DNA from: Betaproteobacteria bacterium
Lineage (GTDB): Bacteria > Pseudomonadota > Gammaproteobacteria > Burkholderiales > Burkholderiaceae_E
DNA length: 34,562 nucleotides
Reading direction: 5' to 3'
Assembly (NCBI GenBank): GCA_016868175.1
Contig: VGHO01000005.1
Location: forward strand, 1-34,562
In this document: positions 4,081-32,188 of the stretch, piece after piece
How positions within the stretch are numbered: position 1 is the stretch's first letter
Layout: each line of letters starts with the position of its first letter
Program-made: the position numbers and the translations under genes
Notes under the pieces: model-generated
Seen by the model: only the letters and a program-made list of their open reading frames with translations
Told to the model about the DNA's origin: nothing
Databases searched by the model: none

Positions 4081-4676
4081 ACCTCCAGACGCTGCACGCC
4101 GATCATCGATTCCCTGGTCACGATTGCAGCGAGACGATCCTCGCTCCAGCCCTCGGTACCCCTTGGTCGCTGGGGAAGCACCATGTAGCGGGTGTCGGCG
4201 GTGGTGTCCCACACCCGGATCTCGACGGCAGGGTCGAGTTGCAGCCCCATCTCGGCGAGCACGGTGCGCGCCTGCCGCACGATGCGCGAGCGGTACTCGA
4301 AATCCTTGTACCAGTCGGGGGGTAGTCCGATGATCGTGAACGCGGTGCAGGAGCACAGCGTGCAGCAGATCACATTGTGGATCGTTGCGGAGTTCTCGAG
4401 TACAACGAGGCAGCGGTGATGCGCAGGCATGCCGAGTCCGAACTCGGCCGCAGCAGCCATGCCGTTTTGCAGGAGTCGCTCCCGAAAACCCGGATCAACC
4501 CAGGATCGCGCCACAAGTCGGGCCCCGTTTTGCGCAATCCACTGCTCCTGCGCAAGTTGGGTGAGCTGGGCAACTTCCTCCTTCACCGCAACCCCGGCCC
4601 GCTCGAGAATGTGCTCAACCGCCGAGACTCTACTTTCGATCGAGGCGGCGGGAACCGTGGCGGGGTTAAGGTACAT
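4077..4676 (-). CDS. nthA: Nitrile hydratase, alpha subunit
   Basis: A 199-residue protein. The ATG at 4676 is chosen because a GGAGAG lies about 8 bases upstream and the protein then begins at the usual place; an in-frame ATG at 4727 is less likely. The metal-binding claw is CTLCSC at residues 105-110. Cobalt enzymes have CTLCSCY and iron enzymes CSLCSCT, whereas here the motif is CTLCSCT, preceded by an extra Cys104 and followed by AF where proline and tryptophan are usual. The tail IRVWDTTADTRYMVLPQRP, then GTEGW and TRESMIGV, is typical of the family. The core CTL favours cobalt, but the context is mixed. It is divergent from the CBS-domain gene across 71 bp. The natural substrate is unknown; an aromatic nitrile is conceivable given the nicotinate genes nearby, but no amidase is present. 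Confidence 0.85.
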   Translation of the reverse strand: MYLNPATVPAASIESRVSAVEHILERAGVAVKEEVAQLTQLAQEQWIAQNGARLVARSWVDPGFRERLLQNGMAAAAEFGLGMPAHHRCLVVLENSATIHNVICCTLCSCTAFTIIGLPPDWYKDFEYRSRIVRQARTVLAEMGLQLDPAVEIRVWDTTADTRYMVLPQRPRGTEGWSEDRLAAIVTRESMIGVQRLEV

Positions 4677-4747
4677 TGCCTCTACTCTCCAGGGTAAGTG
4701 GGCCAGAACTAGAGAAAACCACTTCATTTCTTCGAGGAAACACCGTC

Positions 4748-12885: not shown

Positions 12886-13767
12886 ATGAGTGCCCTTCCA
12901 GCATCCACCGAGCTTCACTCCCCCGCCAGCCTTGAAGAGGCCCTTGGGCTCATGGCGCACGGCGGCCGTCGTCCGCTCGCTGGCGGAACCGACTTCTTCG
13001 CTTCGCTTTCACAGCGCCCCTTCAGGAACCCGCTCGTGGATCTGCAAGGGATTGCCGCGCTGAGGGGGATCCACTTCGCGCGGAGCCCGGAGGGTGCCGA
13101 GACCTTGCGCATCGGCGCTCTCACCACCTGGAGCGATCTGCGCGCAACTCCGCTTCCAGCTGGCCTCGAGGCACTTGCACTGGCTGCAGCCGAGGTCGGG
13201 GGGCGGCAGGTCCAGAATCGGGGCACGCTGGGCGGCAACCTGTGCAACGCATCGCCAGCCGCCGACGGAGTGCCGGTTCTGCTGGCCCTGGACGCCTCGG
13301 TTGCGCTGCAAAGCTCAGGTGGCACGCGCCAGCTCCCTCTTGCTTCCTTCATCCTTGGCAACCGGCGTACTGCCCTTGCGCCCGACGAGTTGCTGGTTGG
13401 CATCGACATCCCCTTGCCCACTTCGCGCGCACGATCGACCTTTCTGAAACTCGGCCATCGGCGCTTCCTCGTGATCTCGGTAACGATGATCAGCGTGCGG
13501 ATCGATGTGGATAACTCGGGACGGATCCAGCGCTGCGCGATCGCAGTGGGGGCGTGCTCGGAGGTGGCACAGCGCTTGCAAGCGCTCGAAGCGCGCCTTG
13601 TGGGCTGCACCGTGGCAAGCGCTGCGGCGTGCGCAGCACAACTTCTGATCGAGGAGAAAGACCGCATGCTCGAGGTGCTGGCACCGATCGACGATGTTCG
13701 CGGCACAGCGCGCTACCGGCGCGACGCACTGTGCACGCTGATTCCACGTGCACTCGCCGCGCAATGA
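12886..13767 (+). CDS. Molybdenum hydroxylase, FAD subunit (CoxM/XdhB/NdhF type)
   Basis: A 293-residue flavoprotein opening the nicotinate operon. FAD-binding motifs are AGGTD at residues 32-36 and NRGTLGGNLCNASPAAD around 111-127; the C-terminal CO_deh_flav_C-like domain covers roughly 180-290. In xanthine-dehydrogenase-family enzymes this subunit receives electrons from the FeS clusters and passes them to the acceptor. The stop overlaps the start of the fused FeS/Mo subunit by 4 bases (ATGA), so the two are translationally coupled. From its neighbours I infer it belongs to a nicotinate (or related N-heteroaromatic) dehydrogenase. The 175 bp upstream show a TAGTAT at 12869 but no convincing -35. 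Confidence 0.88.
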   Translation: MSALPASTELHSPASLEEALGLMAHGGRRPLAGGTDFFASLSQRPFRNPLVDLQGIAALRGIHFARSPEGAETLRIGALTTWSDLRATPLPAGLEALALAAAEVGGRQVQNRGTLGGNLCNASPAADGVPVLLALDASVALQSSGGTRQLPLASFILGNRRTALAPDELLVGIDIPLPTSRARSTFLKLGHRRFLVISVTMISVRIDVDNSGRIQRCAIAVGACSEVAQRLQALEARLVGCTVASAAACAAQLLIEEKDRMLEVLAPIDDVRGTARYRRDALCTLIPRALAAQ

Positions 13768-16715
13768 ACAAGCCCTCCGACACAGGCCTGCGGCAGCTCT
13801 TCCAGGTGCTGCCTCTCGAGATCAACGGCCGCATCGTGGAGGTGCCTGCCGCCTGCGCAACACAGCGGCTCTCGGACGTGATCCGCACTGCGGCCGGGCT
13901 CAGCGGCACCAAGGTGGGCTGCAATGCAGGCGATTGCGGTGCGTGCACCGTTCTGATCGATGGCCGGCAGGCCTGCGCATGCCTGGTTGCGACCGGACAG
14001 TGTCGCGGAATGCGGATCGAAACCGTGGAGTCACTCGCCCACCACGACGGCACGCTCTCGCGACTGCAGCAGGCCTTCGTAGACCACGGTGCGGCGCAAT
14101 GCGGGATCTGTACGCCTGGCATGTTGATGGCGGCCACCGACACGCTGCGTCGCCATCCGCATCCCACCGAGGCGCAGGTCCTCGACGGGCTGGCCGGTGT
14201 GCTTTGCCGCTGCACCGGCTACCGCAAGATCGTGGAGGCGGTTCTGGCCGCAGCCGATTCAGAAGCGGATCCTCGCTTCACTGCGGCGCGGGCAGAGCGC
14301 CCCCTTGTGGCCGCAGCCGGAGCAGCAATCGCAGGTGAATCGGCGGGCCCCGGCGCTGCGCCCGGCAGCCTTTCCATCGCGCAAGTGCATGCGGGCTCAG
14401 CGGTTGGAGCGCGGGTTGAGCGTTTCGACGCCCGCTCCAAGGTTAGCGGACTCGAGCGTTTTGGTGCCGACGAAGCCCCTGCGGACGCCCTGTGGGTCCG
14501 CGTCGTGCGTACCCCCTACCCTCGGGCGCGCTTCAGCTTCGGCGATCTCGAGGCATGGGCACTGGAGCACCCTGGCCTTGCGGGAGTGCTCACGGCCTCA
14601 GACATACCGCACAACCGCTTCGCAATCTTTGCGGCGCTGCGCGACCAGCCGGCACTTGCCGAAGGCGAGGTGCGCTTCGCGGGTGAGGCGATCGCCGCAG
14701 TGGTGGGCGCGCAGGATGCCCTTGCAGCGCTCGACCTGTCCACGCTGCCGATTCATTGGGAGGAACTCGCGCCGCTCAGGGGTATCGATGCTGCACTCGC
14801 GCCGGAGGCCCCTGCAGTGCATGCGCGCTGGCCCGACAACATCCTGTGCCGCGGCCGGGTGGTTTCGGGCGATCTCGAGGCGGTGGAGCGGGGCGCAGCG
14901 CATCGGCTCGGGCTGTGCATGCGCACGCAGCATGTGGAACACGCCTACATCGAGCCCGAGGCCGGATGGGCCACCTGGGATACCGACGCTGGCGATCCAC
15001 GCGTCACGCTCTTCGTCTGCACACAAACCCCCTACATGGACCGCGACGAGATCGCATTCATGTTCGGGCTGGATGCGGAGCAGGTGCGCATCAGACCCTC
15101 TGCGGTGGGCGGCGGTTTTGGCGGCAAGCTCGACCTCTCGGTGCAACCCCTGCTTGTTGCTGCCGCAAGGCGATTCGGCCGTCCTGCACGCATCGTCTAC
15201 GAGCGGCCCGAGTCGATGCTGTCCACCACCAAGCGCCACCCGGCGGTGATGTCGGCAACACTCAGCGGAGACGCCGCAGGAGGTTTGCTGGCCTACGACT
15301 TTGCCGGAGACTTCAATACCGGAGCCTACGCCTCCTGGGGACCCACCGTGGCCAACCGGGTACCGATTCACGCGGCAGGCCCCTACCGATGGCGCGCAGT
15401 GCGGGCCTTGACCCGTGCAGTCATCACCAACGACCCGATCGCCGGAGCGTTCCGCGGCTTCGGTGTTCCCCAGTCCACCCTCCTCGGCGAAGCACTGATC
15501 GACGCCTTTGCTTCCCGGATCGGCGCCGATCCGCTCGAGTTGAGGCATGCCAACGCCTTGCGCGCAGGAGATCACACTGCCACTGGCCAGTTGCTGCCTG
15601 CGAGCGTGGGTCTGCGCGCCTGCCTCGACGCGCTCCGTCCCGCATGGAATCGGGCGCGCGCTGCGCTCAACGCATGGCGCCGCGACCTGTCAAGCCTCTC
15701 CGCGTCGCTTCGGCCTTGCACATGGTCGGCCTCGGATCCGCATGGCAGGGATGCTTCGGTCTTGCGCCGCGGCCTGGGAATCGCCTGCATGTGGTACGGC
15801 ATCGGCAATACCGCCATGGCGAATCCCTCCACCATGGAGATCGGCCTCAAGCCCGACGGTCGTTTTGTGCTCTTCAACGGGGCAGTCGAAATCGGCCAGG
15901 GCACCGCAACCATCCTGCCCCAGATCGCTGCCGATGCACTCGGTGTTCCGCTCGCCCTGATCGACCAGACCGGCGCCGACACCTCGCTCACCCTCGATGC
16001 GGGCAAGAGTTCGGCCTCGCGCCAGACCTTCGTGTCGGGCAATGCAGCCCGACTTGCTGCGCTGGACCTGCGTGCGCGCCTGCTCGAACTCCTCGGCGTG
16101 TTTGAACCCGCCCAACTCCACCTCGCGGACGGCAGGATCCGCGCCGGGCCGGTCGAGCGCGCGCTACGAAGCATGCCCTGCGATGCGCGGGGACTGATCG
16201 CGGTGGGTCATGCAAGCTTCAACCCGCCCACGGTTGCACTCGATGGCGACGGGCAGGGGGTTCCCTACGCCACCTACGGCTTTGCAGCGCAGTTCGCCGA
16301 GGTTGAAGTGGATCTTGCGCTCGGCACGGTGCGGGTGCTCGCAATCCATGCCGCGCACGACGTGGGGCGTGCGATCAATCCAACGCAGGTCGAGGGCCAG
16401 ATCCACGGAGGTATCGCGCAAGGTCTCGGCCTTGCGCTGATGGAAGACTACGTGGCGCAGCGCACCGACAACCTGCACGACTACCTCATCCCTACCGTGG
16501 GCGACGTACCGCCGATCACGGTGCATCTGGTGGAAGACCCCGAGCCGCTCGGACCCTTCGGTGCGAAGGGAGTGGGCGAGCCCGCACTGATCGCCACAGC
16601 GCCTGCGATCCTCAACGCAATCTGTGACGCCACGGGGGTGCGGATCACCGAGGTGCCGGTCACCCCCGACCGGCTTCGCGCAGCACTGCTGGCCTCGGCT
16701 GGGGCACTGCAGTGA
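13764..16715 (+). CDS. Molybdenum hydroxylase, fused [2Fe-2S] and molybdopterin subunits (probable nicotinate dehydrogenase)
   Basis: A 983-residue protein. Residues 1-165 form the small subunit: plant-type [2Fe-2S] cysteines at 53, 58, 61 and 73, and the second cluster at 113, 116, 148 and 150 (CGICTPG, CRCTGY). A linker of about 60 residues leads to the molybdopterin subunit (RFDARSKVSGLERFGAD, the Mo-co motif GGGFGGK, AFRGFG, and the expected catalytic glutamate, about residue 939, in KGVGEPAL). These enzymes hydroxylate N-heterocycles with water. In Eubacterium barkeri nicotinate dehydrogenase the molybdenum subunit is split in two; here the FeS and Mo parts are instead fused. Nicotinate as substrate is inferred from the reductase and enamidase genes in the same operon; a related pyridine carboxylate is possible. 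Confidence 0.85.
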   Translation: MNKPSDTGLRQLFQVLPLEINGRIVEVPAACATQRLSDVIRTAAGLSGTKVGCNAGDCGACTVLIDGRQACACLVATGQCRGMRIETVESLAHHDGTLSRLQQAFVDHGAAQCGICTPGMLMAATDTLRRHPHPTEAQVLDGLAGVLCRCTGYRKIVEAVLAAADSEADPRFTAARAERPLVAAAGAAIAGESAGPGAAPGSLSIAQVHAGSAVGARVERFDARSKVSGLERFGADEAPADALWVRVVRTPYPRARFSFGDLEAWALEHPGLAGVLTASDIPHNRFAIFAALRDQPALAEGEVRFAGEAIAAVVGAQDALAALDLSTLPIHWEELAPLRGIDAALAPEAPAVHARWPDNILCRGRVVSGDLEAVERGAAHRLGLCMRTQHVEHAYIEPEAGWATWDTDAGDPRVTLFVCTQTPYMDRDEIAFMFGLDAEQVRIRPSAVGGGFGGKLDLSVQPLLVAAARRFGRPARIVYERPESMLSTTKRHPAVMSATLSGDAAGGLLAYDFAGDFNTGAYASWGPTVANRVPIHAAGPYRWRAVRALTRAVITNDPIAGAFRGFGVPQSTLLGEALIDAFASRIGADPLELRHANALRAGDHTATGQLLPASVGLRACLDALRPAWNRARAALNAWRRDLSSLSASLRPCTWSASDPHGRDASVLRRGLGIACMWYGIGNTAMANPSTMEIGLKPDGRFVLFNGAVEIGQGTATILPQIAADALGVPLALIDQTGADTSLTLDAGKSSASRQTFVSGNAARLAALDLRARLLELLGVFEPAQLHLADGRIRAGPVERALRSMPCDARGLIAVGHASFNPPTVALDGDGQGVPYATYGFAAQFAEVEVDLALGTVRVLAIHAAHDVGRAINPTQVEGQIHGGIAQGLGLALMEDYVAQRTDNLHDYLIPTVGDVPPITVHLVEDPEPLGPFGAKGVGEPALIATAPAILNAICDATGVRITEVPVTPDRLRAALLASAGALQ

Positions 16716-16731: not shown

Positions 16732-18267
16732 GTGAGCGAGTCTGCGCCGCCGTTGCGCAATCTCCGCGCGGGTCCGGCAACCCCGGATCCGGCGCCCGCG
16801 CAAGTGGTGAAGGCGAAGGCCCCCGAAAACATGGCGGTCAACAAGGTGCTGTGCGACGCCTGTCCGGTGCTTTGCCAGATCAGCGAGGGCCGGCTTGGTG
16901 CCTGCGACCGCTGGGGCAATGTGCACGGGAAACTCCAGCGCATGGATCCGGTGGTGCTCATGACCCGGCCCGGCACGGTACTGGTTCCGGCAAGCCCTCA
17001 GGAGTGGGACGGCCAACTGCTGCACCAGAACGCGCCGGTTTTTGTGTCGGGCGTGGCCAGCGGCACCACCTACCCCGACTACAAACCCGCCCCGTTCATC
17101 GTGGCGAGTCGCCAGCAGGGTGTTGACATGGTCACCGTGGTTACCGAAAGCATCTTCAGCTATTGCAGCTTCAAGATCAAGATCGACACCGACCGCTACC
17201 TCGGCCCGGAACAGGCCACCGTGCGCTTCGCGGGCGAGGCGGTAGGTCATGTCACAACGATCGAGTACGGCTCACAATTTCTCTCGCTCGGTGGCGTGCA
17301 TCACCTCACTGGGGGCTCGCGGCGCGAGGGACGCATGACCTGCGAACTGATGGAGCGGCTTGGCAATCAGCAGCCCGTTGACCTTGTGATCGAGGACGGT
17401 GCGAGTCTGCGGGTGCAGGCGGGCAAGGCGCCGGTGGTCAACGGCGTTGAAGAGCAACGCATGCGGGTCGGATGCGGCTCGGCAGCGATCGGCATCTTTG
17501 CCCGGCAATGGTTCGGTCATGCCGACGAGGTTGTGGTGGTGGACGATCACATCACCGGCGTGCTGAGCGAACACCAGGCGGGCAAGTGTCTCGACATGCC
17601 TCCCACGGGGATCCGCATCCGGGGAAGGAAATCCACGCCGGGGCGCTACTTCCAGGTTGCCAATCCGGGAACCGGCTGGGGCGGCACCGACATCGACGAT
17701 CCGCTGGTGATCATCGAGGGCTGGGACCCCAAAGTGGCAAGACCCGGACTGCGTCTGCTGATGGTCTCCACCACGGGCGAGCACGCGCAGTACTACGTCC
17801 TCGACGAGGCGCTTCTTGCGCGAGCGGTGCCCATGCCGGCCCCGCTCCAGGCCGTGGTGGATCGCATCGGCGAGAACTGCGAACCCTCCCTCGTCACTGT
17901 GCTCTTTGTGGGGGGCGCAGGTGGAAGCCTGCGCGCCGGGGTCACCGAGAACCCGATTCTTCTCACCCGGTCGATCAAGGACCTGCTCACGCGCGTCACT
18001 TGCGCCGGCGCTCCCGCCTATATCTGGCCGGGCGGCGGAATCACCGTGATGGTGGATGTGACCCGGATGCCCGCAGGCTCCTTCGGCTCGGTACCCACCC
18101 CGGCGATCGTTGCTCCGATCGAGTTCACCATGCGTCGCCTCGACTACGAGCGCCTCGGAGGCCATACCGACCGGATCCGCCGCCTCGAGGATGTGTGGGC
18201 CACCGATCCGCATCGCGTGATCCCGTGGATCCCGCACAACCCCTGGCCGCTCGAGTCGCTCCGGTGA
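16732..18267 (+). CDS. hnr: 6-hydroxynicotinate reductase
   Basis: A 511-residue protein from the GTG at 16732 (an ATG at 16831 would also retain the domain). It opens with a ferredoxin-like cluster motif, Cys41, Cys44, Cys48 and Cys58 (C-x2-C-x3-C-x9-C, in CDACPVLC). Strongly typical blocks follow: GTTYPDYKPAPFIV, VTVVTESIFSYC, DRYLGPE, EYGSQFLSLGGVHHLTGG, VVVDDHITGVLSEHQAGK, GRYFQVANPGTGWGGTDI and GGAGGSLRAGVTENP. The E. barkeri enzyme reduces 6-hydroxynicotinate to 1,4,5,6-tetrahydro-6-oxonicotinate with reduced ferredoxin and holds FeS clusters and a covalently bound flavin. No canonical ApbE acceptor motif is apparent. Its stop overlaps the UPF0280 start by 4 bases, suggesting matched expression. 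Identification comes from recognition of the family, not a search. Confidence 0.88.
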   Translation: MSESAPPLRNLRAGPATPDPAPAQVVKAKAPENMAVNKVLCDACPVLCQISEGRLGACDRWGNVHGKLQRMDPVVLMTRPGTVLVPASPQEWDGQLLHQNAPVFVSGVASGTTYPDYKPAPFIVASRQQGVDMVTVVTESIFSYCSFKIKIDTDRYLGPEQATVRFAGEAVGHVTTIEYGSQFLSLGGVHHLTGGSRREGRMTCELMERLGNQQPVDLVIEDGASLRVQAGKAPVVNGVEEQRMRVGCGSAAIGIFARQWFGHADEVVVVDDHITGVLSEHQAGKCLDMPPTGIRIRGRKSTPGRYFQVANPGTGWGGTDIDDPLVIIEGWDPKVARPGLRLLMVSTTGEHAQYYVLDEALLARAVPMPAPLQAVVDRIGENCEPSLVTVLFVGGAGGSLRAGVTENPILLTRSIKDLLTRVTCAGAPAYIWPGGGITVMVDVTRMPAGSFGSVPTPAIVAPIEFTMRRLDYERLGGHTDRIRRLEDVWATDPHRVIPWIPHNPWPLESLR

Positions 18268-19241
18268 GTGCACAGAACACACCCGGGGGACTGGACGGGA
18301 CTTCGGAGAAACCGCGCGGCAGTCCCGAGGAACCACGAGGCGGCCCGGCAAGAGCGATGCTCGCCGACGGCCGCTGGCACTTCCAGCACGGTCCGATCGA
18401 TCTCTTGATCGAAGCGCAGGGCCAACCGGAGGTCTGCCGGGAGGCGCATGAGGAATGCTGGCAGGCCTTCCAGCCGGTGCTTGCAACCCTTGTGCGCGAG
18501 CTCGCCACGCTGCGCCTTCCGCTTCCCACCACCCACGCCTTGCCGCCGGGTCTGCGCGGTCCGGTTGCGCAGCGCATGGTCCGGGCCTGCCTGCCTCATG
18601 CGCGGGCTGGGCTCTACATCACCCCGATGGCGGCTGTGGCGGGAAGCGTTGCCGATCATCTGATCGGTTGCTACCGCAGGGCTGGGATTGCGCGCGCCTA
18701 CATCAACAACGGCGGCGACATCGCCTTGCATCTTGCGCCCGGCGAGCGCTGGCGGGTTGGCGTGGTGCCCAGGGTGCACGCACCGCAGGTGGATGCCGAC
18801 CTCACTGTGGAGGGCCCGTCGCCCTGGCGTGGCGTTGCCACCTCCGGCTGGCGTGGGCGCAGCCTCTCTCTCGGGATCGCCGACAGTGTCACTGTGCTCG
18901 CGGCCGACGCAGCCACCGCCGACGCTGCTGCAACCGTGATCGCCAACCATGTGAATCTGGATCATCCCGCGGTCCTCCGCCGCCCGGCCCGCGAAGTACG
19001 CGATGACTCCGATCTCGGTGACCTCCCGGTGACCGTTGCGGTCGATACCCTGCCGCGGGAAGCCGTTGGCAGCGCGCTTGCGCATGGCCTTGCCTGCGCT
19101 AATGCCTTGCGCGCCAAAGGTCGGATTGCCCACGCCCTGCTGGCGCTCGCCGACTGCTGGGTCCAAACCGCCGCACCGCGCCGCGCCAACATCGCCCGCG
19201 CGCGATGTGCGCCGGTCCCCGCAGCGATCGTCGCGTCCTGA
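18264..19241 (+). CDS. UPF0280 family protein (ApbE-like fold), candidate flavin transferase
   Basis: A 325-residue protein from a GTG at 18264 overlapping the reductase stop (GTGA). The first ~30 residues are a Pro/Gly-rich tail; the UPF0280 domain follows. Motifs shared in spirit with ApbE flavin transferases are visible: YINNGGDIALHL (ApbE: N-x-GGD) around residue 150, DSVTVLAADAATADAAATVIAN (ApbE: xVTV...AD..AT) around 215, and a small-residue AVAGSVADHL segment. ApbE attaches FMN covalently to target proteins. UPF0280 itself has no established activity to my knowledge. Because the neighbouring reductase is of a type known to carry covalent flavin, I infer a dedicated flavinylation role. 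Another job in cofactor handling or ring processing is possible. Confidence 0.78.
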   Translation: MSAQNTPGGLDGTSEKPRGSPEEPRGGPARAMLADGRWHFQHGPIDLLIEAQGQPEVCREAHEECWQAFQPVLATLVRELATLRLPLPTTHALPPGLRGPVAQRMVRACLPHARAGLYITPMAAVAGSVADHLIGCYRRAGIARAYINNGGDIALHLAPGERWRVGVVPRVHAPQVDADLTVEGPSPWRGVATSGWRGRSLSLGIADSVTVLAADAATADAAATVIANHVNLDHPAVLRRPAREVRDDSDLGDLPVTVAVDTLPREAVGSALAHGLACANALRAKGRIAHALLALADCWVQTAAPRRANIARARCAPVPAAIVAS

Positions 19242-19307: not shown

Positions 19308-20525
19308 ATGAAAAAACGCATATTCCTTGCAAGCGGCATCGCACCGGCTGCCGCTGTGCTCACCGGTGCCCTGCCCTTTGCAGTGCGAGCGCAAGCAGGC
19401 CCGATCCGCATCGGCGAGATCAACAGCTACAAGGCCCAGCCCGCCTTTCTCGACCCCTACCGCAAGGGCTGGGAAATGGCGGTCGACGAGATCAATGCTG
19501 CCGGCGGTGCGGCCGGTCGCAAGATCGAGGTGATCTCGCGCGATGACGGCGCAAACCCCGGCGATGCGGTCAGGGTGGCCGAGGAACTGGTGAGCCGGGA
19601 ACGGGTGGATCTGCTGGTGGGCGCCTTCCTCTCGCACATCGGCCTCGCGCTCACCGACTTCGCTAAGCAGAAGAAGATATTTTTCCTTGCATCGGAACCA
19701 CTTACCGACAAGATCGTATGGCAGAACGGCAACCGCTACACCTTCCGGCTGCGGGCGTCTACCTACATGCAGACGGCGATGCTGGTGCCCGAGGCGGCAT
19801 CCTGGAAGAAGAAGCGCTGGGCAATCGTGTATCCCAACTACGAGTATGGCCAGTCTGCAACCGCCAGCTTCAAGGCGCTGTTGCGCGCCCGTCAGCCAGA
19901 CGTCGAATTTGTGGTCGAGCAGGCGCCCGCCCTTGGGAAGGTGGACGCAGGTGCGGTGGTCCAGGCGCTGGCCGACGCCAAACCCGATGCCATCTTCAAC
20001 GTGCTCTTTGGCGCCGATCTCGCCAAGTTTGTCCGGGAGGGTAATACCCGGGGACTCTTCAAGGGACGTGAGGTGGTGAGCCTGCTCACCGGGGAACCGG
20101 AGTACATCGACCCGCTCAAGGAGGAAAGCCCGGAAGGCTGGCTTGTGACCGGCTACCCCTGGGACCTGATCAACACGCCCGAACACAAGGCCTTCGTGGA
20201 TGCCTATCAGAAGCGCACCAAGGACTACCCGCGGCTCGGGTCGGTGGTCGGCTACGCCTCGCTCAAGGCTGTGGGCGCCGGCATCAGCAGGGCGGGAAGC
20301 GCCGACACCGAAAAGCTTATCGGCGCGTTTCGCGGGCTGCAGTTCGATTCGCCCTTCGGGAAGGTTTTGTTCCGGCCTCAGGATCATCAGTCGACGATGG
20401 GGGCCTACGTTGGCCGCACCACGGTGCGCGGAGGCCGCGGCACGATGCGCGACTTCCGCTATGCCGACGGGGCGCAGTTCCAGCCCTCGGACGCCGAGGT
20501 GGCAAGCCTGCGCCCGAAGGATTGA
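19308..20525 (+). CDS. ABC transporter substrate-binding protein, branched-chain amino acid type (LivK-like)
   Basis: A 405-residue precursor with a GGAGG ribosome binding site before the ATG at 19308. A signal peptide (KKRIFLASGIAPAAAVLTGA, cleaved after VRAQA) precedes a type I periplasmic binding fold: IRIGEINSYKAQPAF, GWEMAVDEINAAGG, then DDGANPGDAVRVAEELV and NYEYGQSATASFKALL. It delivers substrate to the importer encoded just downstream. Members of this family bind amino acids, amides and aromatic acids. Its place between the ring-reduction and ring-opening genes suggests nicotinate, 6-hydroxynicotinate or a similar ligand, but the binding pocket cannot be read from sequence by eye. Confidence 0.88.
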   Translation: MKKRIFLASGIAPAAAVLTGALPFAVRAQAGPIRIGEINSYKAQPAFLDPYRKGWEMAVDEINAAGGAAGRKIEVISRDDGANPGDAVRVAEELVSRERVDLLVGAFLSHIGLALTDFAKQKKIFFLASEPLTDKIVWQNGNRYTFRLRASTYMQTAMLVPEAASWKKKRWAIVYPNYEYGQSATASFKALLRARQPDVEFVVEQAPALGKVDAGAVVQALADAKPDAIFNVLFGADLAKFVREGNTRGLFKGREVVSLLTGEPEYIDPLKEESPEGWLVTGYPWDLINTPEHKAFVDAYQKRTKDYPRLGSVVGYASLKAVGAGISRAGSADTEKLIGAFRGLQFDSPFGKVLFRPQDHQSTMGAYVGRTTVRGGRGTMRDFRYADGAQFQPSDAEVASLRPKD

Positions 20526-20564
20526 TGGCCGGAGGCCTTGCCCTCAGGCAGGGGAAACGCCCCG

Positions 20565-22463
20565 ATGACAGTCTCCGGTCTGCTCTTTCAACTGCTCAAC
20601 GGTCTGGCAAGCGCCTCGAGTCTGTTTCTGATCGCAGCGGGTCTGTCGCTGATCTTTGGCGTGTCGCGGATCGTCAATTTCGCGCACGGCTCCTTCTACA
20701 TGCTCGGAATCTATCTGGCCTACACCATAGTGGGCCGGATCGGATCGGGCATTGTTGGGTTCTGGGTTTCGCTGATCGTGGCCGCAGCGGTCGTGGCCGC
20801 AATCGGCCTCCTCGTGGAGTTGATCCTCCTGCGGCGCATCTACCGCGCGCCCGAGTTGCTGCAGTTGCTGGCCACTTTCGCGCTGGTGCTGGTGATCCGT
20901 GACGCCGTCCTCGCGGTCTGGGGGCCTGAGGACCTGCTTGGCCCCAGAGCCCCGGGCCTCAAGGGCTCGGTGGAGATCATGGGCCGGCAGTTCCCCGAAT
21001 ACGACCTTGTGATGATCGCGGTGGGGCCGCTGGTGCTCGGGCTTTTGTGGTGGATCCTGATGCGCACCCGCTGGGGGATCCTGATCCGCGCAGCCACCCA
21101 GGACCGGGAAATGGTGGGTGCACTCGGCGTGAACCAGGCTTGGCTCTTCAGCGGTGTTTTCATGCTGGGGGCATTTCTGGCCGGACTGGGCGGTGCCCTG
21201 CAGCTGCCCCGTGAGCCCGCCAACCAGTTCCTCGACCTCGCTGCAATCGGCGATGCCTTTGTGGTGGTGGTGGTGGGCGGGATGGGCAGCGTCCCGGGCG
21301 CCTTTCTGGCTGCGCTGCTCATTGCCGAGATCAAGGCGCTCTGCATTGCGATCGGGCAGATCTCGGTCCTGGGCTACAGCTTCTCGCTCTCGCGCCTCAC
21401 GCTGGTGGTGGAGTTTCTGGTCATGGCCGCTGTGCTGATCTGGCGTCCCTGGGGCTTGCTGGGAAAACCGGCCGCACTGTCGCGCAACGCCTCGGAGATC
21501 GAAGCACCCCTTCGCCCCGCACCCCCGCTGCTGCGTCGCTTTGGCTGGCTGGTGCTGCTTGCGCTCCTGCTGGTGCCGGTGGTTGCCGCGAGGATGCCCT
21601 TTCTCAACGTCCTGATGATCGACATCCTGGTCGCAGTGCTCTTTGCGGCGAGCCTGCACTTCATCATGGGGCCCGGTGGCATGCACTCCTTCGGCCATGC
21701 CGCGTATTTCGGACTCGGTGCCTACGGAGCTGCGCTGCTTTTCAAGCTGGCTGCGCTACCGATGGAGGCCGCATTTGCGCTGGCGCCACTCGTGGCCGGG
21801 CTTGGGGCGCTGATCTTCGGCTGGTTCTGTGTGCGCCTCTCGGGTGTGTATCTTGCAATGCTCACGCTTGCTTTTGCGCAGATCGTCTGGTCGGTGGTCT
21901 TTCAGTGGGACGAGGTGACCGGCGGATCCAACGGCGTGGTGGGTGTGTGGCCCTCGCCCTGGCTCGCGCCGAAGTGGGCCTACTACTATTTCACCCTGGC
22001 GATCACGGTTGCCGGGGTTCTGGTCCTGCGGCGTGTGCTGCTGTCGCCCTTGGGCTATGCGATGCGCGCGGTACGCGACTCGCGCCTGCGCGCCGATGCG
22101 ATCGGTATCGACGCCCTGGCGGTGCACTGGGCCGGATTCGTGCTGGCAGGTCTGATGTGCGGCCTTGCGGGCGCGCTCTTTGCGTTCTCCAAGGGGAGCA
22201 TCTCCCCGGAAGTGATCGGGGTTGGCCGTTCGATCGACGGCTTGGTGATGGTGCTGCTGGGCGGCATCCAGACGCTCGCGGGACCTCTCGTTGGCGCTGC
22301 CGCCTTCACCTGGCTGCAAGACACCGTGGCACGGCAGACCGAGTACTGGCGTGCGATGCTCGGCCTGAGCATCCTCGTGCTGGTGCTCGCCTTTCCCCAG
22401 GGCATTGCCGGGTTCGTGCGCGAACGCTTCATGCCGGTGCGCCACGGCAGCCCGGCACAATGA
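20565..22463 (+). CDS. Fused LivH-LivM type ABC transporter permease
   Basis: A 632-residue membrane protein joining two permease subunits normally encoded separately. Residues 1 to ~300 are LivH-like (SLIFGVSRIVNFAHGSFYMLG at the N-terminus; VVVVVGGMGSVPGAFLAALL later). After a Pro/Arg-rich linker, residues ~320-632 are LivM-like (FGHAAYFGLGAYGAAL, LRADAIGIDALAVHWAGF, and LLGGIQTLAGPLVGAAAFTW). Each half has multiple hydrophobic helices. The ATG at 20565 follows AGGGGAAA; the TTG at 20538 is less likely. The stop overlaps the livG start by 4 bases. It forms the inner-membrane channel for the binding protein just upstream. Confidence 0.9.
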   Translation: MTVSGLLFQLLNGLASASSLFLIAAGLSLIFGVSRIVNFAHGSFYMLGIYLAYTIVGRIGSGIVGFWVSLIVAAAVVAAIGLLVELILLRRIYRAPELLQLLATFALVLVIRDAVLAVWGPEDLLGPRAPGLKGSVEIMGRQFPEYDLVMIAVGPLVLGLLWWILMRTRWGILIRAATQDREMVGALGVNQAWLFSGVFMLGAFLAGLGGALQLPREPANQFLDLAAIGDAFVVVVVGGMGSVPGAFLAALLIAEIKALCIAIGQISVLGYSFSLSRLTLVVEFLVMAAVLIWRPWGLLGKPAALSRNASEIEAPLRPAPPLLRRFGWLVLLALLLVPVVAARMPFLNVLMIDILVAVLFAASLHFIMGPGGMHSFGHAAYFGLGAYGAALLFKLAALPMEAAFALAPLVAGLGALIFGWFCVRLSGVYLAMLTLAFAQIVWSVVFQWDEVTGGSNGVVGVWPSPWLAPKWAYYYFTLAITVAGVLVLRRVLLSPLGYAMRAVRDSRLRADAIGIDALAVHWAGFVLAGLMCGLAGALFAFSKGSISPEVIGVGRSIDGLVMVLLGGIQTLAGPLVGAAAFTWLQDTVARQTEYWRAMLGLSILVLVLAFPQGIAGFVRERFMPVRHGSPAQ

Positions 22464-23212
22464 CGCCGCTGCTCGAAGTCCTCAAGCTCTCGAAGGCCTT
22501 CGGCGGTGTGAAGGCGGTCACGCAGGTGTCCTTCTCTGTAGCAGCGGGCGAACTTCTGGCCATGATCGGTCCGAACGGCGCCGGAAAATCCACCTGCTTC
22601 AACATGCTCAACGGCCAACTCCGCCCCGATGAGGGATCGATCAGACTCGCGGGGCGAGAGCTTGTTGGACTTGCCCCGCGCGAAGTCTGGCGCATGGGGG
22701 TGGGGCGCACTTTCCAGATCACCGCCACCTTCGGATCGATGACGGTTCGCGAAAACGTGCAGATGGCTCTGCTCTCGCATCATCGCGCGCTTGTCAGCGC
22801 CTGGATGCCCGCAGCAGAGGCTTTCGTTGCCGAGGCCGATGCACTGCTTGAACGGGTGGGCATGCGCGAACAGGCCCCGCGACCCTGCTCGATTCTCGCT
22901 TACGGCGATCTCAAGCGCCTCGAACTTGCGATTGCGCTCGCCAACGCCCCAAAGCTGCTTCTCATGGATGAGCCCACCGCAGGAATGGGGCCGCTCGAGC
23001 GAACCGAACTGATGATGCTCACTGCGCGACTGGTGCGCGAGCAAGGTGTGGCGGTACTCTTTACCGAGCACGACATGGACGTGGTCTTTCGGCATGCCGA
23101 TCGCCTGATGGTGCTTAACCGCGGAATGCTCATTGCGCAGGGCGAGCCCGAGATGGTGCGCGCCAATGCGGAGGTGCAGCGGGTGTATCTCGGATCGCGT
23201 TCCGGATCATGA
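22460..23212 (+). CDS. ABC transporter ATP-binding protein, LivG type
   Basis: A 250-residue ATPase starting at an ATG that overlaps the permease stop (ATGA). Walker A is GPNGAGKST, the signature region reads LAYGDLKRLELA (LivG proteins usually have YGxQRxLE, so the Q is replaced here) and Walker B is LLLMDEPTAGM, with the switch histidine in FTEHDMDVV. One of two nucleotide-binding subunits powering the importer. It overlaps the livF start by 4 bases. Confidence 0.9.
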   Translation: MTPLLEVLKLSKAFGGVKAVTQVSFSVAAGELLAMIGPNGAGKSTCFNMLNGQLRPDEGSIRLAGRELVGLAPREVWRMGVGRTFQITATFGSMTVRENVQMALLSHHRALVSAWMPAAEAFVAEADALLERVGMREQAPRPCSILAYGDLKRLELAIALANAPKLLLMDEPTAGMGPLERTELMMLTARLVREQGVAVLFTEHDMDVVFRHADRLMVLNRGMLIAQGEPEMVRANAEVQRVYLGSRSGS

Positions 23213-23919
23213 CCGTGATGCTCGAGGTGCGCGCACTCCACGCCTACTACGGTCAGGCCCACATTCTCTTTGAGGTCGGGCTCGAAGTACACGCCGGCGA
23301 GGTGGTGGTCCTGCTCGGGCGTAACGGCGCGGGCAAGAGCACCACGCTCAAGTCGATCGCGGGATTGCTGCGACCACGCCAGGGGCTTGTGCGCTTTCAA
23401 GGTGAGCGCATCGACGGACTCGAGCCCTTCGTCATCGCTCGCAAGGGATTGGGCTATGTGCCGGAAGACCGGAGGATCTTCACTGAACTTACCGTGCTCG
23501 AGAACCTCGAGGTGGGCAGACAGGCACCCCGCGCCGGGGTCCCGGTGTGGAACTTCGCGAGGATCGGCAAACTCTTTCCCAACCTCGCCGAGATGCCGCA
23601 TCGACCCGGGGGTCGGATGTCGGGAGGCGAGCAACAGATGCTCACCATTGCACGAACGCTGATGGGCAACCCCTCGTGCATCCTGCTCGACGAGCCCTCC
23701 GAGGGCGTTGCGCCGGTCATCGTCGACCAGATGGCCGCGGCGATCGCCGAGCTCAAGCGCCAGGGCGTTGCGGTATTGCTTTCGGAACAGAACCTGCACT
23801 TTGCCCAGGAGGTGGGCGATCGCGCCTTTATCATCGAAAAGGGTCGGATCGCGTTTCAGGGCAGCATGGAGGCCTTGAGCGCCAACGATGCGGTGCGTAG
23901 CCAGTATCTCGCCGTTTGA
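23209..23919 (+). CDS. ABC transporter ATP-binding protein, LivF type
   Basis: A 236-residue ATPase, coupled to livG by an ATGA overlap. It has the LivF N-terminus (LEVRALHAYYGQAHILFEV), Walker A GRNGAGKST, GYVPEDRRIF, signature MSGGEQQML and Walker B ILLDEPSEG, then LSEQNLHFAQEVGDRAFI. Second ATPase of the importer; completes a full four-domain transporter with its binding protein. Confidence 0.92.
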   Translation: MTVMLEVRALHAYYGQAHILFEVGLEVHAGEVVVLLGRNGAGKSTTLKSIAGLLRPRQGLVRFQGERIDGLEPFVIARKGLGYVPEDRRIFTELTVLENLEVGRQAPRAGVPVWNFARIGKLFPNLAEMPHRPGGRMSGGEQQMLTIARTLMGNPSCILLDEPSEGVAPVIVDQMAAAIAELKRQGVAVLLSEQNLHFAQEVGDRAFIIEKGRIAFQGSMEALSANDAVRSQYLAV

Positions 23920-23964: not shown

Positions 23965-24549
23965 ATGTCAGCCCAGATCCGCAAACTTGTTGTATCGGTC
24001 GAGGAAACGCATCGGGAGATGGGGCAGACCATCCTGCCGGCCACCCGGCGCGCCCTGGCGATCGCAGTGATCGCCAACCCCTACGCGGGCAGGTTCAGCG
24101 ACACACTCGACGAACTCGTTGCGATTGGCGAAGAGCTCGGGGGCCTCCTGGGCGAACGTTGTGTGCGCGCCCTGGGTATCGATCCGGCTGCCGCCGAAAG
24201 TTACGGCAAGGCTGCAATCGTGGGTGAGGCAGGCGAGCTTGAGCATGCTGCCGCAATCCTGCATCCGAAGCTCGGTGCACCCCTTCGCAAGGCGGTCGAC
24301 AAGGGTGCAGCACTTGTTCCCTCGGCAAAGAAGATGGGTGGCCAGGGTGCCGCAATCGACGTGCCGCTCGGACACAAGGACGCTGCCTTCGTACGCAGCC
24401 ACTTCGATGCAATCGAAGCACGCGTGACCGATGCGCCGCGTGCGGGCGAGATTGTGGTGGCGGTGGCCGTCACCGACAGCGGACGACCGCTCGCTCGCGT
24501 GGGCGGACTTCAGAAGCACGAAATCAAGGGCGGCGACGGACTGCGTTGA
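23965..24549 (+). CDS. AA_synth (amino acid synthesis) family protein, PF06684-type
   Basis: A 194-residue protein with GAGGAGAA eight bases before its ATG. It spans the whole AA_synth (formerly DUF1185) domain: IRKLVVSVEETHREMG at the start, VIANPYAGRF, YGKAAIVGEAGELEHAAAILHP, GQGAAIDVPLGHKDAAFVRSHFD and VAVTDSGRPLARVGG near the end. No signal peptide; probably cytoplasmic. The family name is not backed by a known reaction. Its place between the transporter and enamidase suggests a role in N-heterocycle breakdown, perhaps processing a ring-opening product or an intermediate isomer, but this is only context. Confidence 0.85.
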   Translation: MSAQIRKLVVSVEETHREMGQTILPATRRALAIAVIANPYAGRFSDTLDELVAIGEELGGLLGERCVRALGIDPAAAESYGKAAIVGEAGELEHAAAILHPKLGAPLRKAVDKGAALVPSAKKMGGQGAAIDVPLGHKDAAFVRSHFDAIEARVTDAPRAGEIVVAVAVTDSGRPLARVGGLQKHEIKGGDGLR

Positions 24550-24660
24550 TCGTGAGACCGTGGATTTCGCGGCGTCTCGCGCGTCGTCGTGACAAGCATC
24601 GCATGTCGCTGCGGGCACCGGGCGCATCAACGGAGCCGTTGGCTCAAAGGGGGAGCAGGC

Positions 24661-25881
24661 ATGGCCTTGGCAGCAAGCATTGAAAGCTCGGGGAAGGTGG
24701 TCATTCGGCGGGTTGGTCTGATGCTCTCGGGCGACATCGATCAGCCGATCCTCGATGCCGACACCGTGGTGGTGGAGGACGGCCTGATCCGCGCCGTTGG
24801 CGCTGAAAAGGACTGCGATACCGCTGGCGCACATCGGGTGATCGACTGCAGGGGTACCGCGATCGCGCCCGGGCTCATCGACTCGCACACGCATCCGGTG
24901 TTCGGTGACTGGACCCCACGCCAGAGTCAGCTCGGCTGGATCGACGCGTGCATGCATGGTGGAGTCACCACCATGATCTCGGCCGGCGAGGTGCACCTGC
25001 CCGGCCGACCGAAGGACATCCTGGGTGTGAAGGCGCTTGCCATCACAGCGCAACGTGCCTTCGATGGCATGCGCGCAGCGGGTGTTGGCGGTGGCGTGAA
25101 GGTGCTCGCAGGCGCCCCGGTGGTCGAAAAGGGCATGGTGGAACAGGACTTTGCCGAGATGGCCTCGGCCGGGGTTCGCCTCCTGGGCGAGATCGGGTTG
25201 GGTTCGGTGAAGGCTGGCAACGAAGCCGCCGTCATGGTGGCATGGGCGCGAAAGCACGGGATTCAGAGCACGATCCATACGGGTGGGCCTTCGATTCCGG
25301 GCTCCGGTCTGATCGACGAGCATGTGGTGCTCGAGGCCGATGCCGATGTGATCGGTCATGTGAACGGCGGACACACCTCGCTGTCCTACCGCTCGGTTTG
25401 CATGCTCTGCGAGAGGAGCACCCGAGCGCTCGAGATCGTGCACAACGGCAACGAACGCATCGCCATCCTCACCGCGCGCCACGCGGTGGAACTCAAGTGC
25501 CCCCATCGGGTGATCCTCGGCACCGATGCGCCGGCAGGGTCAGGGGTGCAACCGCTGGGAATCCTGAGGCTGATCGCCCTGATCGCCAGCATGGCCGAGA
25601 TTCCTGCCGAAATCGTGTTTGGGTTTGCCACCGGCAATACGGCCCGGATGCGCTCGCTTTCTCAGGGCCTGATCGAAGTGGGTCGGCCCGCAGATCTAGT
25701 CTTTCTTGATAAGGCTCAACATTCGGCCGGCAGGGATTTGCTGAACAGCGTTCAGCTTGGCGACATCCCCGGCGTGGGGATGGTGATGATCGACGGTATC
25801 GTACGCTGCCAGCGAAGCCGAAACACCCCGCCAGCCAGCGAAGTACCCATCATCATCGAAGGATCCACCCTCCGCGGGTAG
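24661..25881 (+). CDS. ena: Enamidase (1,4,5,6-tetrahydro-6-oxonicotinate amidohydrolase)
   Basis: A 406-residue metal-dependent amidohydrolase from the ATG at 24661, preceded by GGGGGAG. Family motifs are VVEDGLIRAVG, GLIDSHTHPVFGDW with the metal ligands His76 and His78, GEIGLGSVK (Glu177), STIHTGG (His206), GHVNGG (His233) and LGTDAPAGSGVQPLG (Asp289). The last motif and SRNTPPA near the end are, as I recall, hallmarks of E. barkeri enamidase, a bifunctional Fe-Zn enzyme of about 385 residues. It hydrolyses 1,4,5,6-tetrahydro-6-oxonicotinate to ammonia and 2-formylglutarate. It is the last gene of the operon, 111 bp after the AA_synth gene. No gene for 2-formylglutarate reduction follows. 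Confidence 0.87.
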   Translation: MALAASIESSGKVVIRRVGLMLSGDIDQPILDADTVVVEDGLIRAVGAEKDCDTAGAHRVIDCRGTAIAPGLIDSHTHPVFGDWTPRQSQLGWIDACMHGGVTTMISAGEVHLPGRPKDILGVKALAITAQRAFDGMRAAGVGGGVKVLAGAPVVEKGMVEQDFAEMASAGVRLLGEIGLGSVKAGNEAAVMVAWARKHGIQSTIHTGGPSIPGSGLIDEHVVLEADADVIGHVNGGHTSLSYRSVCMLCERSTRALEIVHNGNERIAILTARHAVELKCPHRVILGTDAPAGSGVQPLGILRLIALIASMAEIPAEIVFGFATGNTARMRSLSQGLIEVGRPADLVFLDKAQHSAGRDLLNSVQLGDIPGVGMVMIDGIVRCQRSRNTPPASEVPIIIEGSTLRG

Positions 25882-29227: not shown

Positions 29228-30691
29228 CTACCCGAGCCGCGAGTCCGCCATCCAGCAACCGTGAAAGCCCAGGGGGACATGCCGCGGTAGCGCCAGTTGC
29301 GCAATCGGGCCGCTCGAGAGGTCGTGCGCATCGAAGATGTCGAGCGTCTGCCGCTGGCTTGCCGCATTCCACTGGAATGCGATGAGATAGCCGTCGTCTT
29401 CGTACCTTGCCCCGTTGGCTGCGGCAAAGCAAGGTTCCGAGTACCAACTCGCGGCGGGATGCTCGCGCCACGACGACAGGGTGGTACCGCTTGCGAGATC
29501 GCATTTGCGCAGACCGGGAAACTGCAGCACCTCCTGCTCGCATTGATCAGCCAGGTAGCCGTAGCGGGTAGGGCGACCCACGCGTGCGTGGTTCACCGTG
29601 GGGAACTCGAGGTTGTGCTCCGGGTCGAGGCAGCACTCCTCGGCCTGCCCGGTGCTGAGATTCATCCGCCAGCGCCAAAGGCGCGCACGCATCCGCAGGG
29701 CTGCGATATCCCGCGCGGTTTCGAGCGTATCGATCGATCCATCGGCACGCTTTGCCGGCATGTAGCGACATCCCACCATCGTGACCCAGTGACCGCGCAA
29801 ATCGTGTTCTTCCCAGGCGTTCACCACGTGATAGACGAAGCAGGGCGAGAACTCGAACCAGCGCAAGGCTGCAGGGCTTCCGTAGCGCGGAATCACGCCA
29901 AAGCGCGCGGGGAGATCCGCGCGAAAGAGCAGTTTGTGCCGCCCGAGCGCAAAGGCCCCGGGGTCGTGCAGCAGGGGCAGATCGTGAAGCACGGTGAAGT
30001 GCTCGGTGATGGCCATGTCGTGCGGCAGGCGGGGGCCCGGAAGTGCGATCGGTACCCGGTGGCTGAGGCTTCCGTCGCGCCCGACGACACCGTAGTGCAG
30101 GTAGGGGGCCTCGATGCCGTAATCGAAGAAAAGCAGTTCCTCACACTGCTCGTCGACTTTCGCGTGCGCCGAGATCTTGCCGCCCTGGGCTGCAACCGCC
30201 GGATGCCGCCCGAGCGTTTCGAGGCTGACGGGATCGAGTTCCCAGGCATCGCCCGCGAGGTACCAGAGAGCGAGGGCTCTGCCGCGATGCCCGATCAGGT
30301 CGGTGTTGGCACTGTCTTTCAGGGGCCGCTCGGAAAGCCCCTGCCGGGTCTCCCGGATACCCCGATAACACGCCGCACCATTTGCCTGCTCATGCTGCCA
30401 TGCGTCGGTGCGTACCCATCGATTGCGCAGCCGCACCGCGCCCGCCTGCACCTGAGCGGCGTGCACCATGCCATCACCGTCGAAAGGGTGGTAGCGGCCA
30501 AGCGGTGCAAAGCGGGGATTCGGGCCGTTGCGCAAGTAAACGCCGTTGAGGTCCTCGGGCACCCTGCCTTGGACCAGCGGGAGATCCACGAAGTCCGACT
30601 CATCGTGCCTGGGCGCAAAGGGCCCCTGGAGCAGTGCCTCCATCGGGTCGAGCGGCGCATCGGCAGGCGCGCTTCTTGGCAATCCATGCAT
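29228..30691 (-). CDS. Carotenoid cleavage oxygenase family protein
   Basis: A 487-residue enzyme of the RPE65/CCD family. The ATG at 30691 has GGGAG eight bases upstream. The four iron-binding histidines are all present: His176 (SAHAKVD), His224 (LPHDMAIT), His288 (VYHVVNAWEE) and His477 (GFHGCW). Other hallmarks are VPEDLNGVYLRNGPNPRF, HPFDGDGMVH and YGYLADQ. The iron(II) enzyme cleaves a double bond in carotenoids or related phenylpropenoids (for example lignostilbene). In a phototroph an apocarotenoid role is natural, but substrate cannot be read from sequence. It lies 55 bp after the cobC stop on the same strand and may be co-transcribed. Confidence 0.9.
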   Translation of the reverse strand: MHGLPRSAPADAPLDPMEALLQGPFAPRHDESDFVDLPLVQGRVPEDLNGVYLRNGPNPRFAPLGRYHPFDGDGMVHAAQVQAGAVRLRNRWVRTDAWQHEQANGAACYRGIRETRQGLSERPLKDSANTDLIGHRGRALALWYLAGDAWELDPVSLETLGRHPAVAAQGGKISAHAKVDEQCEELLFFDYGIEAPYLHYGVVGRDGSLSHRVPIALPGPRLPHDMAITEHFTVLHDLPLLHDPGAFALGRHKLLFRADLPARFGVIPRYGSPAALRWFEFSPCFVYHVVNAWEEHDLRGHWVTMVGCRYMPAKRADGSIDTLETARDIAALRMRARLWRWRMNLSTGQAEECCLDPEHNLEFPTVNHARVGRPTRYGYLADQCEQEVLQFPGLRKCDLASGTTLSSWREHPAASWYSEPCFAAANGARYEDDGYLIAFQWNAASQRQTLDIFDAHDLSSGPIAQLALPRHVPLGFHGCWMADSRLG

Positions 30692-30746
30692 CGTCGATAC
30701 TCCCGTGGGGAAGCCCCCCAACGCCAGGCGCATCTTGCCACGCACG

Positions 30747-31355
30747 TCACGGCCGCCCGTACCCAGCGTGGCCTCCGGGCGCCAACGGCACCACCAGTTT
30801 GCAAGACGAGGCGTAGGCGGGTGCCGCAGGCCACTCGCCCGGGTCGATCGCGCGGCCGATGGCCGCTGCCCCGTTTTCGGCGAGCCAGGTTGCTGCCGAC
30901 AACCAGCCTCCATGCCCCACCAGCAGCCGCGCGCACCCCGGTTGCCATGCAGCAACCCTTCTCAGGAGATCGACAACACTCTCGCCGCCACCCGGGCACC
31001 GGTGGGCAAGGTCATTGCACCACGCGTCGATCGCATCACGCCCAATTGCGCTCCAGTGTCTCCCGTCCCAGTTCCCGAAGTCCACCTCGAGCAACGCAGG
31101 GTCGATCCGGTGTTGCCAGCCCCAGCGGCGCAGGATCCGACCCACGTCGGCGCATCGTCTCAGCGGCGAAGTGAGCACCTCGCGCGGCAGTTGGTTTTTG
31201 CGTGCAAGTTCACAGAGGCGATACGCAAGCCGCCGCGCCTTGCGGGGATCCACCGGCAGATCCACCCTGCCCACACACCGACCCGCTGCACCTACGGGTT
31301 TGGGATGGCGCCAGGCAAACACGATTACTGCTTCGGGGTTCGCAGGCAGATTCAT
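30747..31355 (-). CDS. cobC: Alpha-ribazole phosphatase (histidine phosphatase family)
   Basis: A 202-residue protein starting at an ATG at 31355 that overlaps the cobS stop by 4 bases. It has a histidine-phosphatase core: the catalytic histidine in AWRHPKP (proline replaces the glycine of RHG), GRVDLPV, LTSPLRRCADVG, the acid in LLEVDFGNWDG, and the second histidine in LLVGHGGW. Family and position, next to cobS and cobT, indicate removal of phosphate from alpha-ribazole 5'-phosphate (or adenosylcobalamin 5'-phosphate) in assembly of the cobalamin lower ligand. The reading frame continues further upstream, but that is the cobS region in another frame. Confidence 0.8.
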   Translation of the reverse strand: MNLPANPEAVIVFAWRHPKPVGAAGRCVGRVDLPVDPRKARRLAYRLCELARKNQLPREVLTSPLRRCADVGRILRRWGWQHRIDPALLEVDFGNWDGRHWSAIGRDAIDAWCNDLAHRCPGGGESVVDLLRRVAAWQPGCARLLVGHGGWLSAATWLAENGAAAIGRAIDPGEWPAAPAYASSCKLVVPLAPGGHAGYGRP

Positions 31356-32176: not shown

Positions 32177-32188
32177 GGGTGGCGAGGT

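Follow-up and report, generated by a model that had tools for sequence, protein, structure and literature searches.

The window described here is a stretch of 34,562 nucleotides (positions 1 to 34,562 of contig VGHO01000005.1, assembly GCA_016868175.1) from a betaproteobacterium. It carries the gene for a presumed 6-hydroxynicotinate reductase (HNR), followed by that of a protein of the UPF0280 (COG2122) family. The partnership of these two genes is near certain. Hidden Markov models (HMM), profile-profile comparison and the predicted fold all place UPF0280 in the ApbE superfamily. The ApbE-like shape, a partially retained active site and the tie to HNR together suggest that UPF0280 is probably the helper that attaches a cofactor to the reductase. 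We give slightly better than even chances to the view that it works in the cytosol as a maturation factor dedicated to HNR, most likely a divergent flavin transferase of the ApbE type. The elements concerned are:

16732..18267, + strand: HNR, the presumed client; open frame of 511 amino acids with a GTG start
18264..19241, + strand: UPF0280/COG2122 protein of the ApbE superfamily, presumed HNR maturase; open frame of 325 amino acids with a GTG start
18264..18267, + strand: GTGA, in which the stop of HNR and the start of UPF0280 overlap
17068..17070, + strand: codon of HNR Thr113, conjectured flavin acceptor, chosen for its invariance and its position in a loop predicted with low confidence

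The association between the two genes was measured in two genome samples. Among 399 genomes of the window's order, presumably Burkholderiales going by its named relatives (HNR scored at E≤1e-10, UPF0280 at E≤1e-3), 30 contained HNR and 31 had a UPF0280 match, with 29 having both. The HNR frame of the single HNR-only genome (G413) is cut by the start of its contig. As for the UPF0280 matches without HNR, G373 has an intact UPF0280 gene beside AA_synth and transporter genes and gave no HNR match, whether genome-wide or within the 12 kb of sequence read. The other genome, G449, has only a UPF0280 fragment (E 3.7e-9, 62 positions, no tblastn match) next to fragments of enamidase and AA_synth genes, and looks like a decayed operon. 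In a sample of 299 genomes of its phylum (presumably Pseudomonadota), which overlaps the first (at least G000 and G207 are among the positives), 21 genomes contained HNR and the identical 21 had a strong UPF0280 match; a 22nd match, in G293, was weak (E 1.6e-4). With G449 and G293 scored as absent and relatedness ignored, Fisher's test gave p = 8e-42 for the order and 1e-32 for the phylum. HNR-positive genomes came from 9 families in the order sample and from 7 more in the phylum sample. Neither gene was confirmed in viral contigs. The genome-wide co-occurrence that the preliminary description of this DNA, made from its sequence alone, had proposed as a check thus turned out near-perfect (29 of 30 HNR genomes in the order, 21 of 21 in the phylum), including where the genes lie apart.

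The two genes are adjacent in 42 of the 48 genomes that have both, stand 497 bases apart in one and are separated in five, by 4.8, 13.6 or 24.4 kb or by location on different contigs. All five belong to genus g184. This genus comprises nine HNR genomes, with the genes apart in five and adjacent in the other four, and both genes are retained throughout; their persistence after separation counts against mere operon drag. Protein distances of HNR and UPF0280 were correlated (Mantel r=0.86 for 95 rows, each a genome or a locus, none of 999 permutations being as high), which is the expectation for co-inherited genes. The 95-row set, also used to score invariance, was obtained by dropping two mis-extracted rows. 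In one genome (G016:C1:2969805-2971261) HNR is present as two overlapping pieces, so that the gene is either frameshifted or split; UPF0280 comes after it.

A separate scan of one genome per species, limited to close relatives by its use of exact peptide patterns, yielded 63 HNR loci (two of which, L029 and L030, represent one strain). In 60 of them UPF0280 follows HNR in the same orientation, one being a partial gene at a contig end (L009); in the remaining three (L047, L057, L059) the contig stops no more than 289 bases past the HNR frame. A start codon in the register of the 4-base overlap is found at 16 of these 60 loci, and the overlap at 18264-18267 confirms the GTGA coupling that the preliminary description had reported. 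In plasmid records, UPF0280 accompanies HNR in 26 of 26. A 27th record with UPF0280, from Hydrogenophaga, has an IS1071 transposase gene upstream of it and, directly before UPF0280, a frame of 48 residues whose first 20 match HNR residues 463-482. Aligned with HNR alone, 10 of these 20 are identical (E 9e-6), on a scale where an unrelated stretch also reached 4e-4. On the strength of this match, the frame is probably the tail of an HNR gene left by the insertion. The plasmid, pBPS33-1, carries repeated IS1071-bordered units; UPF0280 occurs at four places, two units were seen, and the intact UPF0280 behind the probable HNR tail was read in one (L066 11640-11980).

The neighboring genes bear on an alternative in which UPF0280 has a different target, protein or step, within nicotinate breakdown (the dehydrogenase, the enamidase or the transporter) and tracks HNR merely through the common pathway. 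In favor of this idea, the split g184 loci (L109-L115) place UPF0280 with AA_synth and a binding protein and HNR with the dehydrogenase, and a UPF0280 gene without HNR (L107) stays beside AA_synth and the transporter. However, a dehydrogenase FAD subunit of the type found in the window occurs at just 13 of the 51 HNR loci with 6 kb of upstream sequence, which indicates that UPF0280 tracks HNR and not the dehydrogenase. AA_synth (PF06684), often seen as two divergent copies, is present at 49 of the 54 loci where 4 kb or more follow UPF0280, and absent from five. By this comparison, HNR is the constant companion of UPF0280, which is found at every HNR locus whose contig continues. We regard a different target within the pathway as improbable.

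Assignment of the window's protein to UPF0280 is firm: it scores 368.2 bits against NCBIfam model NF003322 (cut-off 290, E=2.5e-110), the only one of four related models whose cut-off it clears. It also matches the Pfam ApbE family PF02424 over residues 64-199 (E=1.1e-8, 35.4 bits against a gathering threshold of 25.6) and, by sequence, the Desulfovibrio protein DVU1097, whose structure is 2o34 (E=9.2e-9). We take 2o34, COG2122 and UPF0280 to represent one family, in keeping with this match. The AF2 model of UPF0280 (pLDDT 88) superimposes on 2o34 with a Z of 20.4 over 216 residues (3.4 Å), and on solved ApbE, Ftp and FmnB structures with Z of 14.3-16.9 over 204-225 residues; the next hits, uricases, score at most 8.1. 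The structural comparison with ApbE suggested in the preliminary description thus returned an ApbE fold. The two motifs pointed out there are in place as well: NNGGD at residues 148-152 and VTV...AD...AT within SVTVLAADAATADAAATV, at residues 208-225. When UPF0280 was compared by hhalign with 20 canonical ApbE proteins, which came from 17 genomes that have HNR, residues 123-228 aligned with a probability of 95.9% (E=6.6e-9), setting S194 opposite the serine of the ATSG motif and D220 opposite the aspartate of AD...T. Catalytic residues of Vibrio ApbE are numbered Ser241 and Asp285 in PMC12052999; we equate the partners of S194 and D220 with these two, by their spacing of 44. UPF0280 thus resembles ApbE, Ftp and FmnB in fold, in the GG[DN], ATSG and AD...T motifs and in the placement of the catalytic Ser and Asp. 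All 95 UPF0280 sequences compared share D46, D152, S194, R199, D220 and T224 without exception, a sign of strong constraint on the pocket.

The presumed client is less easily classified. No NCBIfam model matched HNR at E≤0.1, no Pfam model was significant for the window's protein (the best, GCV_T_C, gave 0.089) and no Foldseek match to its fold reached E≤0.001. The name derives from 26 plasmid homologues 61-68% identical to it, 17 with the annotation 6-hydroxynicotinate reductase (the others being hypothetical or unannotated), and from a proteobacterial homologue in a similar cluster that is 42% identical to the Eubacterium barkeri enzyme, according to PMC3511419. In an alignment of 97 HNR sequences, 153 positions are without variation, gaps set aside. 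These include C41-x2-C44-x3-C48-x9-C58, probable ligands of an iron-sulfur cluster, and three further cysteines, C145, C248 and C383. The E. barkeri enzyme contains a [4Fe-4S] and a [2Fe-2S] cluster. Also invariant is the loop T113-YPDYKPAPFIV-124, and the only internal stretch of the HNR model (pLDDT 76 overall) that falls below 50, residues 109-119, lies at this loop. Invariant, poorly predicted and bearing an invariant threonine, the loop is a candidate for binding a cofactor or for its attachment; Thr113 itself as the flavin acceptor is a guess, many further Ser and Thr residues being invariant in HNR. The best structural score for the HNR fold was a Z of 3.7, to a domain of the glycine-cleavage T-protein, and PF08669 (GCV_T_C) was weakly matched in 39 of 40 HNR family members (best E 1.6e-4). 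The faint likeness to the C-terminal barrel of the T-protein falls at HNR residues ~145-180 (window 17164-17271).

Putting the two proteins together, flavin transfer is the likeliest chemistry for UPF0280, with a roughly even chance of being the correct one. In the proposed mechanism, UPF0280 would bind FAD and Mg2+ through its conserved ApbE-like half (NNGGD, ATSG, AD...T). It would then move FMN onto an HNR residue with a hydroxyl group, plausibly Thr113 in the TTYPDYKPAP loop, with release of AMP. The base replacing the histidine used by ApbE could be Arg199, which is invariant, or His39, which is nearly so.

Several observations weigh against UPF0280 being a flavin transferase dedicated to HNR. 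A covalently bound flavin is reportedly present in the HNR of E. barkeri (Alhapel 2006), and for that one enzyme only. Clients of ApbE carry the acceptor motif D-x-x-[ST]-G-A-[ST], whereas HNR does not: it was found in 0 of 40 and 0 of 97 HNR sequences, in agreement with the preliminary description, which had seen no classical acceptor motif in the reductase. The HxIDPxTG hairpin, which carries His257, the proposed general base of ApbE (PMC12052999), is deleted from UPF0280 in the hhalign alignment. Profile homology to ApbE is confined to residues 123-228 and leaves the N-terminal flavin half unmatched. In addition, one intact UPF0280 gene, that of G373, exists as an orphan. Since UPF0280 lacks the His hairpin and HNR the client motif, both features of the characterized transferases, we do not claim that UPF0280 is a canonical ApbE transferase. 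The preliminary proposal of a maturase is thus supported in part, by the fold, the Ser/Asp pair, the co-occurrence and the failure to find canonical ApbE in 13 of 30 HNR genomes (see below), and is weakened by the deleted hairpin, flavin transfer itself being conjectural.

The remaining counter-arguments come from work on COG2122 in other organisms. According to PMC5764234, COG2122 is required in Desulfovibrio vulgaris for homocysteine synthesis together with DUF39 and NIL/ferredoxin proteins, its fitness profile correlating with that of DUF39 at r=0.98, and the Methanosarcina member MA1715 aids growth at low sulfide. The same paper puts forward a persulfide role for COG2122 over flavin transfer, because its homology seemed to fall short of the flavin-binding region, a reservation that agrees with the unmatched N-terminal half of UPF0280. 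Given the genetic tie of COG2122 to DUF39, the family is not exclusive to HNR: MA1715, DvMF_0044 and DVU1097 serve sulfide assimilation or DUF39-dependent homocysteine synthesis (PMC5764234). In this they differ from the UPF0280 of the window, to which DVU1097 is similar by sequence and by fold. DUF39 itself turned up in none of 299 genomes from the phylum of the window. Homology between HNR and DUF39, which would explain the common use of COG2122, was considered and dropped as unsupported: PF01837 (DUF39) was absent among the Pfam matches of 40 HNR sequences, and hhalign gave 0.2% for a low-diversity profile against a single DUF39 consensus sequence. This lack of apparent homology also counts against the reading of UPF0280 as a flavin transferase of HNR. 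The preliminary description had held that UPF0280 occurring widely without HNR and with a different proven activity would refute a maturase role. That is partly what is seen, COG2122 acting in DUF39 and sulfide pathways with a biochemical activity that is unproven there; likewise, the family is uncharacterized, as that description stated, in its biochemistry but no longer in its genetics. A search of open-access papers found none linking UPF0280 or COG2122 to HNR; statements may exist elsewhere.

These data lend some weight to a second alternative, in which UPF0280 is an HNR-dedicated maturase with a different chemistry: delivery of persulfide or sulfur to an iron-sulfur cluster or an active-site cysteine, or hydrolysis of FAD to supply FMN. 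In its favor are the persulfide role suggested for COG2122 from the work on D. vulgaris (PMC5764234), the invariant HNR cysteines C145, C248 and C383 plus four N-terminal ones, and the missing His hairpin. Against sulfur chemistry, the fold and the conserved Ser and Asp are of the flavin transferase type, and no Cys is found among the residues at least 95% conserved in 46 UPF0280 sequences, whereas a sulfur carrier might need one. Overall, we consider this alternative rather unlikely.

A third possibility is that the flavin of HNR is acquired autocatalytically, bound non-covalently or supplied by a canonical ApbE, UPF0280 having an unrelated role. Several covalent flavoenzymes are self-flavinylating (PMC12052999), and a canonical ApbE is encoded in 17 of the 30 HNR genomes of the order sample. 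None was found in the other 13, however, which makes it unlikely as the general HNR flavin transferase. In the window's own genome (93% complete), no other ApbE-family match was found. Moreover, ApbE is typically membrane-anchored and periplasmic (PMC12052999), whereas the N-termini of the window's HNR and UPF0280 are not strongly hydrophobic (by a crude measure, the most hydrophobic 17-residue stretch within residues 1-60 has a hydropathy of 1.28 and 0.02, respectively). An unrelated role would also leave the near-perfect co-occurrence of the two genes unexplained. We judge this third possibility improbable as well.

If UPF0280 is indeed the flavin transferase of HNR, a biochemical function would be gained for a family known by genetics only, and protein flavinylation would extend to a soluble cytosolic iron-sulfur reductase, where both the acceptor site would be new and the catalytic base another than in ApbE. 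It would also provide a testable idea for the part of COG2122 in homocysteine synthesis. On a broader and unlikely generalization, COG2122/UPF0280 proteins would be flavin transferases of the cytosol that do without the ApbE His hairpin and act on soluble reductases linked to ferredoxin. In aerobic proteobacteria the client would be HNR; in anaerobes and methanogens it would be the homocysteine synthase formed by DUF39 and NIL/ferredoxin. This synthase would then hold an unsuspected covalent (or COG2122-supplied) flavin reducing a thioaldehyde intermediate, and such a supply of flavin would account for COG2122 mutants mimicking DUF39 mutants.

The remainder of the operon in the window comprises the following genes:

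12886..13767, + strand: FAD subunit of a molybdenum hydroxylase, nicotinate dehydrogenase-type (PF00941 2.9e-38, PF03450)
~13764..16715, + strand: fused 2Fe-2S and molybdopterin subunit, nicotinate dehydrogenase-type (PF01799, PF02738, PF20256); the start at 13764 is the presumed one, in a frame open from 13554
19308..20525, + strand: periplasmic binding protein of a branched-chain-type ABC transporter, putatively for nicotinate uptake (PF13458 6.3e-71)
20538..23919, + strand: permease fusion and two ATPases of the same branched-chain-type transporter (PF02653, PF00005)
23965..24549, + strand: AA_synth protein, a further conserved operon member (PF06684 7.4e-69)
24589..25881, + strand: amidohydrolase, probably the enamidase of the next pathway step (PF01979 2.4e-11)

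The enamidase label is assigned from the pathway. The gene content fits catabolism of nicotinate by the route that reduces 6-hydroxynicotinate to THON. A pair of nitrile hydratase genes lies on the opposite strand (3409-4727), some 8 kb away from the operon:

4077-4727, - strand: nitrile hydratase alpha (PF02979 2.3e-71)
within 3409-4356, - strand: nitrile hydratase beta

The pair possibly provides a 3-cyanopyridine-type route into nicotinate. At the other end of the window, 29228-33118 on the - strand contains a gene for an RPE65-type carotenoid oxygenase, adjoined by genes for a histidine phosphatase, CobS and a CobT-like phosphoribosyltransferase, a cobalamin lower-ligand set.

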